Assembly (NCBI GenBank): GCA_016841245.1
Contig: JAENZN010000026.1
Location: 1 to 46,138, forward strand
From: Syntrophomonas sp.
Lineage (GTDB): Bacteria; Bacillota; Syntrophomonadia; Syntrophomonadales; Syntrophomonadaceae
Direction of reading: 5' to 3'
Length of the DNA: 46,138 nucleotides
Program-made: the position numbers and the translations under genes
The notes under the pieces: generated by a model
The model's input: the letters and a program-made list of their open reading frames with translations, nothing else
Told to the model about the DNA's origin: nothing
Databases searched by the model: none
In this document: piece by piece, positions 17,388 through 20,037 of the stretch
Layout of the letters: every line of letters starts with the position of its first letter
Numbering within the stretch: position 1 is the stretch's first letter

Positions 17388-17417
17388 TTGACATGATTTG
17401 AATGAAAGTGCTATAGT
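17388..17417 (+). promoter_or_regulatory. sigma-A promoter of the trpBA leader
   Basis: TTGACA (17388-17393), an 18-bp spacer, TATAGT (17412-17417). Transcription would start near 17424, about 15 nt before the first (G/T)AG triplet and roughly 500 nt before trpB. Confidence 0.7.
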
Positions 17418-17438: not shown

Positions 17439-17483
17439 GAGACGAGATGAGCCGAGTTTAGAGACGAGATGAGATTAGATTAG
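17439..17483 (+). promoter_or_regulatory. probable TRAP (MtrB) binding site: nine (G/U)AG triplets
   Basis: GAG/TAG triplets start at 17439, 17444, 17449, 17454, 17459, then 17466, 17471, 17476 and 17481: seven or eight at exact 5-nt spacing (2-nt spacers) with one 4-nt spacer. A GAG overlapping at 17461 would keep a 2-nt register with the second half. This is the known pattern for the trp RNA-binding attenuation protein, an 11-mer that wraps such RNA when tryptophan is plentiful. The segment AGATGAGC (17445-17452) can pair with GCTCATTT (17510-17517) in the following terminator, which would make an antiterminator. Confidence 0.8.
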
Positions 17484-17503
17484 TTCAGGTAATGATTTTT
17501 ATT

Positions 17504-17540
17504 GCCGGTGCTCATTTATGCAGCGGTTTTGCTTTTTTCT
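17504..17540 (+). terminator. trp leader attenuator terminator
   Basis: CCGGTGC (17505-17511) pairs with GCAGCGG (17520-17526) with one G-G mismatch around the loop TCATTTAT, followed by TTTTGCTTTTTT. It would end transcription when TRAP occupies the triplets. The region 17541-17822 after it is AT-rich and shows no other clear element. Confidence 0.65.
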
Positions 17541-17822
17541 GTTCTTAATTTTATACCAGACCAGATCAATTGGGTATTCAAATCTTATTAATCATGCTTT
17601 ATGTTCCTGAACCTCGGCACTTCTAAAATGTTCTTAAATGATCAATTTCAAATTATACTTTATTCCTAAATAATACTGGATACGGAATGGATTATATGTT
17701 TATTGGTATTTTGTCCATAATAAATCCTATTTTAATTTCCAGGACTTGTTTGGACTTATTGGATACAGACACCCGGCTGCGCAGCAGGCTATATAAGCAG
17801 TGAGTTAGGAGGCATCCACAAC

Positions 17823-17891
17823 ATGAAGACTTGTGTTATGATGCGATGGCCCCTCAGGGCCTGGTCGTTCTTAATTGAGGTGGAAAGCTGA
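17823..17891 (+). CDS. 22-codon leader ORF with two Trp codons before trpB
   Basis: The ATG at 17823 follows TTAGGAGG at good distance. The ORF has 22 codons with Trp at positions 9 (17847) and 14 (17862). The bases between form a perfect hairpin GGCCC-CTCA-GGGCC (17848-17861), so each Trp codon sits at an edge of the stem. The stop TGA (17889-17891) is directly followed by another ATG in the same frame. It resembles a Trp-sensing leader peptide; that role is inferred. Confidence 0.55.
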   Translation: MKTCVMMRWPLRAWSFLIEVES

Positions 17892-17921: not shown

Positions 17922-19121
17922 ATGTTAAATTCAGGGATGCCCGCCAAAGGCGGTTACTTTGATAAATATGGGGGGAGGTTCATGCCGGAAACCCTTATGC
18001 CAGCGCTGCAGGAACTTGAAACAGCTTATTTGGAAACCCAAAAAGATAAGGGTTTCACCAGGGATGTAACCTGGTATTTGAATAATTATGTGGGTCGTCC
18101 TTCGCTGCTGTATCCTGCTCAGCGCTTGAGTAAATACTTGGGTGGAGCCCAGATTTATCTGAAACGTGAAGATTTGAACCATACCGGTTCTCATAAAATA
18201 AATAACACCATGGGCCAGGCTCTCCTGGCTCAGCGTATGGGTAAAACCCGGCTTATTGCCGAGACCGGAGCTGGTCAGCATGGGGTGGCTACAGCTACTG
18301 TAGCTGCACTGCTGGGCTTTGAATGTGTTATATATATGGGAGAAGAGGATACGGTGAGACAGCATCTCAATGTATCCCGGATGAAACTTTTGGGCGCAGA
18401 AGTGATACCAGTAAAATCTGGCAGCCGAACGCTTAAGGATGCCATGAACGAAGCCATCCGAGATTGGGTTAGTAATGTTGATAATACCTATTACCTGCTG
18501 GGTTCGGTAGGTGGGCCTCATCCTTATCCCATGATGGTAAGGGATTTTCAGACAGTCATAGGAAGAGAAACCCGGCAGCAGATCATTGAACACACCGGGA
18601 GGTTACCGGATGCGGTAGTTGCCTGTGTAGGAGGAGGATCTAATGCGATAGGTATTTTTTACCCATTTTTGCAGGACACAGAGGTGCAGTTGGTGGGTGT
18701 TGAAGCAGGGGGAGAAGGTCTTGACAGCGGCAGGCACTCGGCAACCATTAATAAGGGGCGCCCGGGTGTACTGCACGGTTCATTAAGCTATGTTTTACAG
18801 GATATAGAGGGACAAATCAGTGAGGTTCATTCTATTGCTCCAGGATTGGATTACCCGGGAGTTGGTCCTGAACATGCGTATTTGAAGGACATCGGCAGGG
18901 TAAGGTATACCAGTGCAACTGATAGTGAAGCTCTGGAGGCTTTCAAACTGCTCAGTTTTACTGAAGGCATACTGCCTGCCATAGAAAGTGCTCATGCTCT
19001 GGTAGAGGCAGTTCGCATGGCATCGAGTATGTTGGCAGATAAAATAGTGGTGATAAATCTATCGGGCCGGGGTGATAAAGATGTCGAGAGTATAGTTCAA
19101 CACAAGGGGGAGCATATATGA
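17922..19121 (+). CDS. trpB: tryptophan synthase beta chain
   Basis: PLP enzyme that joins indole and serine to make tryptophan. The 399-aa protein has the PLP-binding Lys in [30 protein letters not shown] and the phosphate-binding GGGSNAIG loop. It is the classical TrpB1 type. AAAGGAGG precedes the ATG, and its end overlaps trpA by the ATGA arrangement. The other trp genes are not in the window, so trpBA forms a separate operon under its own TRAP-type leader. Confidence 0.97.
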
Positions 19122-19897
19122 GCATAATTACTGAAAGACTTAGAAACCTGGTCAGCTGCGGGGAAAAAGGGCTGATTACCTATATGACCGGTGGGGATCC
19201 TGATATGAAAAGCAGCCAGGAGATAATGCTTTCCATGGCCAAAGCAGGAGCTGATATCATAGAGGTAGGATTGCCTTTCTCAGATCCGGTAGCTGATGGA
19301 CCGGTTATACAGGCTGCTTCCAATCGAGCCCTGGCCAACGGTGCTGCAGTAGGGAAAATCTTACAGATGATTGCCGATGTTTGCCAGGAAGTCGCTGTTC
19401 CGATAGTTATAATGAGCTACTATAATCCTATCCTTCAGTTTGGTCTTCAAGAGTTCTGTGCTCAAGCCCAAGCATGCGGAGTAAATGGAATGATCATACC
19501 CGATCTTCCCTATGAAGAAAGCGAACGTCTGCGCAATTATGCCGATGGGTACCAGCTGGACTTAATACCTATGGTAGCCCCTACTACTACTCCTGAACGC
19601 TTGGAGGCCATATGCAGTTCGGCTCGGGGCTTCATCTATTGTGTATCAGTTGCCGGAGTTACTGGGGTACGAGATCATATTCAAACAGATCTGGATTTAT
19701 TAAGCTCAGCTGTGCGCAGGTATACCGATCTGCCGCTGGCGATAGGATTTGGAGTATCTGGTCCTGACCGGGCCAGGGATATGGCACCGTTCTGTGATGC
19801 GGTTATTGTCGGCAGTGCTCTGGTAGAGCTGATTGCAGAGCAAAAATATAAAGAGATGGAGAAACTTACAGAAGATATCAAAACTGCATTACGTTAA
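19118..19897 (+). CDS. trpA: tryptophan synthase alpha chain
   Basis: TIM-barrel subunit (259 aa) that cleaves indole-3-glycerol phosphate and passes indole to TrpB through the tunnel. The catalytic Glu and Asp lie in [15 protein letters not shown]; the phosphate site is in [10 protein letters not shown] and VIVGSALVE. Coupled to trpB by a 4-bp overlap. Ordinary length. Confidence 0.97.
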
Positions 19898-19910: not shown

Positions 19911-20032
19911 TGGGGTCAGGCACTAACTTACTAACTTATGGGACACGGGGACAGGTTCCTTTTCCCTACTATTATTTGGAACGGGACAAGGAACCTGTCC
20001 CCGCGTCCCATAAACTATGGTGCCTGACCCCA
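19911..20032. repeat. about 120-bp nested inverted repeat (REP-like)
   Basis: Outer arms TGGGGTCAGGCAC (19911-19923) and GTGCCTGACCCCA (20020-20032) enclose inner arms TTATGGGAC-x-CGGGGACAGG... (19937 onward) and its near-perfect complement ending near 20012. The whole block can fold into one long hairpin between the convergent trpA and thioesterase genes. Similar GGGGTCAGGCAC repeats are, as I recall, frequent in related Firmicutes. It could also act as a bidirectional terminator. Confidence 0.8.
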
Positions 20033-20037
20033 CTAAA

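Follow-up and report, generated by a model that had tools for sequence, protein, structure and literature searches.

A predicted TRAP attenuator preceding a stand-alone trpBA operon in Syntrophomonas sp., and its place in a split tryptophan regulon

The window considered here, by which is meant the entire 46,138-nucleotide stretch of contig JAENZN010000026.1 from Syntrophomonas sp., carries on its plus strand two overlapping genes for tryptophan synthase: trpB, encoding the beta chain (17922-19121; TIGR00263, 621 bits against a cut-off of 392), and trpA, encoding the alpha chain (19118-19897; TIGR00262, 274 bits against a cut-off of 102), which share 4 nt. No further trp genes adjoining this pair were found in the window. 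The leader, on the same strand, begins with a promoter that was called strong (TTGACA-18-TATAGT, 17388-17417; 11 of 12 matches, with a TG that makes an extended -10), followed by a predicted TRAP-binding array (17439-17488) of nine (G/T)AG triplets and one CAG at 17486. As had been anticipated, an intrinsic terminator, the predicted attenuator, lies downstream of the triplets and before the first gene (17504-17538), being supported by constrained folds and by a conserved stem. It consists of GCCGGTGC, an 8-nt loop and GCAGCGGT (stem 17504-17511/17520-17527, with one G.G mismatch), and continues into TTTGCTTTTTT, the T tract that reaches 17538; the mismatch is the reason why a consensus terminator scan overlooked it. 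Closer to trpB, a small open reading frame with two Trp codons (MKTCVMMRWPLRAWSFLIEVES, 17823-17891), conserved among relatives, is preceded by a GGAGG Shine-Dalgarno motif at 17808-17812, and contains a hairpin, GGCCC-CTCA-GGGCC (17848-17861), that begins in the first of the Trp codons, which stand at 17847-17849 and 17862-17864. On the 3' side of trpA, a long inverted repeat occupies 19913-20035, with arms GGGGTCAGGCAC and GGGACAGGTTCC, and pieces of its motif recur on contig 31, on either side of the gene that lies upstream of trpE, in the manner of mobile palindromic repeats. All Rfam matches in the trpBA region belonged to miRNA families and fell below the gathering score, the strongest lying on this inverted repeat.

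The triplets start at 17439, 17444, 17449, 17454, 17459, 17466, 17471, 17476 and 17481, an overlapping GAG at 17461 offering an alternative to the one at 17459. The original prediction had described nine such triplets, directly after a promoter, at a period of 5 nt; their count and position stand, while strict periodicity does not, the array being interrupted by one central 7-nt step (one 4-nt spacer, the rest being mainly of 2 nt). The array thus includes at least seven (G/U)AG repeats with mainly 2-nt spacers, and since RNAs with seven or more triplets are bound by TRAP (PMC4027176), nine should suffice. Its score of 8.6 compares with a mean of 3.6 and a maximum of 5.5 in 200 windows simulated by a first-order Markov model of equal composition, and was reached in none of 5000 local simulations.

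Orthologous leaders are available from two congeners, G003 (TrpB 96% identical) and G001 (89%), and from two genomes of another family, G039 and G041 (TrpB about 70%). Promoter, array and terminator are retained in both congeners, while most of the surrounding and following leader has diverged; G039 and G041 display the identical order of array, terminator and trpB, and the stem of their terminator, CCAATGC...GCATTGG, is perfect. The stem carries one mismatch in the present genome (G000) and in G003, and among the three congeners it has undergone one two-sided and two one-sided changes. Stem cells are paired in 92% of cases, against 17-58% in slid versions of the alignment, a difference that, with three sequences, is not significant by shuffling. 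Triplets and spacing are thus conserved in all four trpB leaders, and the lack of conservation that had been named as evidence against the prediction was not seen.

The regulator that such an array calls for is encoded elsewhere in the genome, where a search of 3.9 Mb in 56 contigs revealed a single mtrB (C6:28124-28321, locus L001; E 7.9e-37), so that its absence, likewise named in advance as damaging, was not observed. The gene product scores 131.4 bits as an equivalog match to NCBIfam NF009724 (cut-off 117), and also matches solved TRAP structures. In a comparison of 18 positions with Bacillus subtilis TRAP, whose sequence was checked against PDB 1wap, the residues described as contacting each triplet, Glu36, Lys37, Lys56 and Arg58 (PMC4027176), are all retained. 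The sole difference, Phe32 to Leu, is peculiar to this MtrB among the 31 compared, Phe being present in the other 30 relatives and in B. subtilis.

Within the whole genome, arrays of at least five regularly spaced triplets occur at four sites only, namely trpBA, trpE, trpD and trpB2; lowering the threshold to four triplets adds two stray sites (contigs C24 and C38), neither at a trp gene. The trpE array spans the start region of its gene (TTAGACGAGACGAGACGAGATGAGATTAGAAGAGGAGAGAACGACGAGATGAGC, in which ATGAGC is the trpE start). That of trpD lies directly 5' of the gene, within a trpEGDCF-aroF cluster that is on a different contig from trpBA. The fourth covers the Shine-Dalgarno sequence and start codon of trpB2 (C43:26621-26642, minus strand, locus L013), which encodes a TrpB-like PLP enzyme (NF009057, 732 bits). 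The suggestion that the tryptophan pathway is split, with each part under its own TRAP site, is thereby borne out. Because the sites at trpE, trpD and trpB2 overlap ribosome-binding sites and are devoid of a terminator arrangement, their mode should differ from the termination proposed for trpBA; a single repeat placed over a ribosome-binding site is reported to be enough for blocking (PMC4347634), and these three sites probably act as translational blocks rather than as attenuators. With TRAP itself and matching sites on other tryptophan genes in the genome, the split pathway appears to be under TRAP control throughout, and the trpBA attenuator appears, on the basis of sequence, to belong to a regulon whose control is mostly translational.

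Related genomes display the same association. An mtrB gene is present in 42 of 61 relatives, so that TRAP outside Bacillus is not in itself surprising. A strict array is found in 32 of the 42 genomes with mtrB and in 3 of the 19 that do not have it (Fisher P 1.4e-5, 61 genomes), and arrays thus track mtrB across this set; a backwards control pattern is not independent of the arrays, because GAK also matches GAG arrays. By an approximate hand count there are 71 distinct arrays, a figure that includes two without locus assignment (G029 C281 and G023 8336), and about 66 of them lie at genes for tryptophan synthesis, transport or related steps. The remaining ones are located in a coding region (G035), in a simple repeat of a genome without mtrB (G050) and at a contig end (G010). 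No array of five triplets was found when 80 loci from named genomes, relatives at the 60-69% level, were searched over their first 6 kb (plus strand).

Two of these 71 arrays, those of G050 and G035, resemble what would be expected of chance or purine-rich, low-complexity stretches without function, and the same could in principle be proposed for the trpBA array. Simulation and conservation rule this out: none of the 200 simulated windows attains the score, the position is conserved, the sister sites are confined to trp genes and mtrB is present, which leaves the proposal with a negligible probability.

Among the targets in relatives, the array at the start codon of trpB2 is conserved in more than 12 genera, and TRAP-type arrays with a terminator precede iorA in five genera (genomes G022, G030, G017, G047 and G058; loci L174, L175, L177, L178 and L179, minus strand, at about positions 1305-1405). 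The latter gene, known from partial sequence, is taken as that for the alpha subunit of indolepyruvate:ferredoxin oxidoreductase by its closest model, TIGR03336, with a score below the cut-off. Arrays with terminators likewise precede a TrpP transporter gene (G052) and an ABC binding-protein gene (G015). In G056 (L139, position 1898), an array and terminator precede a DctP-like binding-protein gene, on a contig that also contains iorA and trpB2, and it is possible that this gene serves the uptake of an indole compound. In G057 (L140, minus-strand position 2489), a TRAP array, a terminator and aroF, encoding DAHP synthase, come after mtrB, an order in which TRAP may attenuate a gene that shares the mtrB transcript. 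A trpDC cluster found in the congeners G001 and G002 (L104 and L109) possesses a separate leader with TRAP array and terminator, as well as a further long leader.

Taken together, these observations point to TRAP-mediated transcription attenuation of the stand-alone trpBA operon, a predicted mechanism to which we assign a probability of roughly 0.93. The mechanism that we infer, which comprises TRAP binding, tryptophan dependence, termination and translational block, would operate as follows. When tryptophan is scarce, TRAP would be inactive, and leader triplets around 17447-17454 would pair with the terminator, at its left arm and loop; with this anti-terminator formed, RNA polymerase would read into trpBA. 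At high tryptophan, Trp-loaded TRAP would wrap nine or ten triplets and block the anti-terminator, the hairpin at 17504-17527 would then form, and transcription would stop near 17538. The same TRAP would cover the ribosome-binding sites of trpE, trpD and trpB2, lowering their output.

Predicted folds are partly consistent with such a switch. When the triplets are barred from pairing, the terminator becomes the minimum-energy structure in G000, so that masking favors the terminator, and in the free RNAs of G000, G039 and G041 the array is predicted to pair with terminator bases in an alternative fold. The proposed 5' side of the anti-terminator is the array segment ATGAGCCG (17447-17454, plus strand), which in a predicted duplex is complementary to CGGTGCTCAT of the left arm and loop of the terminator. 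The pairing of these elements with the triplet region that had been described is possible in this duplex, its strength not exceeding that obtained with shuffled arrays. The GCTCAT:ATGAGC pairing is intact in G003 and includes one G-U in G001, and pairing between array and terminator is feasible in all five trpBA leaders. It is not stronger than that of shuffled purine-rich arrays in G000, G003 and G001; G041 alone rises above them (3/200), with G039 (17/200) and G001 (24/200) being borderline.

The anti-terminator, as modeled, is therefore the weakest link of the TRAP-attenuator reading. TRAP could instead bind the array without an anti-terminator switch of the Bacillus type, bringing about pausing or termination directly or altering RNA stability. 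The terminator is present even in the unconstrained minimum-energy folds of G001 and G003, which, together with a pairing that does not rise above that of shuffled arrays, speaks for direct action, and B. subtilis TRAP is reported to be able to induce termination independently of attenuator RNA (PMC3913778). Array and terminator folds are however mutually exclusive in G000, G039 and G041, and the three congeners retain the loop-complementary GCTC(A/G)T opposite ATGAGC, so that direct action in place of a switch is considered unlikely. The same two observations, on shuffled arrays and on the unconstrained G001 and G003 structures, imply that the switch may need a particular order of folding or direct action of TRAP on the polymerase. 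Attenuation by TRAP is therefore argued here from architecture, regulator and conservation, and not from the fold.

The small open reading frame before trpB evokes the question of a second layer of control. It is present at the same position in five genomes, with an RWP(L/I) or RCWPL core, and its equivalents, read by eye from the alignment, are MKTCVMMRWPLRAWSFFLSMAKLG in G003, MIMKRWPIRAWLLFYLLLAQGKAKVVYIKEAK in G001, where the stop lies 1 nt 5' of the trpB ATG, and MS(L/F)RCWPLAGRKRC... in G039 and G041, with the stop a few nt before it. Each of the five complete leaders in which a stand-alone trpBA is TRAP-attenuated contains the hairpin, which forms in all five predicted folds; its 14-base form is found, among the 61 genomes, only in the trpB leaders of these congeners and at two further sites, of which one or both lie in a coding frame. 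A resemblance to trpF, whose G023 product includes RRWPAWAYLFD, led to the frame being considered as a trpF remnant, and is probably coincidental, because the frame adjoins trpB and its form in G039 and G041 differs.

In such a dual arrangement, TRAP would set transcription, while the frame and hairpin (17823-17891) would add control of trpB translation that depends on tRNA-Trp or on the ribosome. The presence of both elements in all five leaders, and the proximity of the stop to the trpB start in G001, G039 and G041, are in keeping with this proposal, as is the scarcity of other candidates: anti-TRAP (PF15777) was not found above the cut-off in any of the 61 genomes, this one included, nearly all weaker matches falling within frames of 370-420 amino acids that are presumably DnaJ-like, judging by their length and zinc motif. 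A T-box (RF00230) leader at trpBA was rejected, there being no match to this family in the leader or region; the T-boxes of this genome sit on contigs other than those of the trp loci. Another input from uncharged tRNA-Trp would thus make up for the missing anti-TRAP and for the missing T-box at these loci. Less favorable to the proposal are the one or two Trp codons, which are not in tandem, the variable end of the peptide, and predicted folds among which no clear sequestration of the trpB Shine-Dalgarno sequence or start was found; the hairpin may moreover be conserved for another reason, and five sequences are at hand. The role of the frame as a sensor of tRNA-Trp is for these reasons only a suggestion, the frame and hairpin being a speculative candidate for a second layer at trpBA, and dual control being possible, if rather doubtful. 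The broader scenario, in which TRAP of this lineage would run a split tryptophan regulon without anti-TRAP, extending to an indole-using TrpB2 and, among related genomes, to iorA and aroF, with the frame and hairpin supplying the tRNA-Trp input at trpBA in cis, is put forward tentatively, as a rather unlikely whole.

TRAP attenuation itself has long been known, and surveys of how Gram-positive bacteria regulate their trp genes place TRAP in some genomes of Clostridia-like organisms. Within the open literature that was searched, an attenuator for trpBA only within a split regulon, trpB2 and iorA as targets of TRAP, and the small open reading frame appear to be new. The system would extend a textbook RNA switch of Bacillus to a different bacterial group, one RNA-binding ring appearing to employ two modes, termination at trpBA and blocking of start sites at trpE, trpD and trpB2. 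The conserved site on trpB2 speaks for a role of this TrpB-like enzyme, so far poorly understood, in supplying tryptophan, and leaders before iorA suggest that the enzyme there works biosynthetically, under repression by tryptophan. The sensing of charged tRNA-Trp without anti-TRAP also becomes a testable question.

The closest known counterpart is the trp leader of B. subtilis (PMC4027176, PMC4347634), with which the trpBA leader shares a promoter, a (G/U)AG array with two-nucleotide spacing, an overlapping terminator and a TRAP with the same contact residues. It differs in that trpBA alone is controlled, in that nine (G/T)AG triplets and one CAG, with one 7-nt step, replace the 11 triplets of B. 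subtilis, and in that about 380 nt, containing the small open reading frame, separate terminator and trpB, with no recognizable anti-TRAP gene in the genome. The arrays over Shine-Dalgarno sequences and start codons at trpE, trpD and trpB2 resemble the translational TRAP sites of B. subtilis, such as that of trpG (PMC4347634), although the targets differ, and in relatives also include the iorA and aroF leaders. In B. subtilis, anti-TRAP (rtpA), with its T-box and leader peptide (PMC4027176, PMC11255114), gives the TRAP regulon an input from tRNA-Trp, which the small open reading frame would likewise provide; here, where no anti-TRAP was found above the cut-off, the Trp-containing frame lies before trpB itself.
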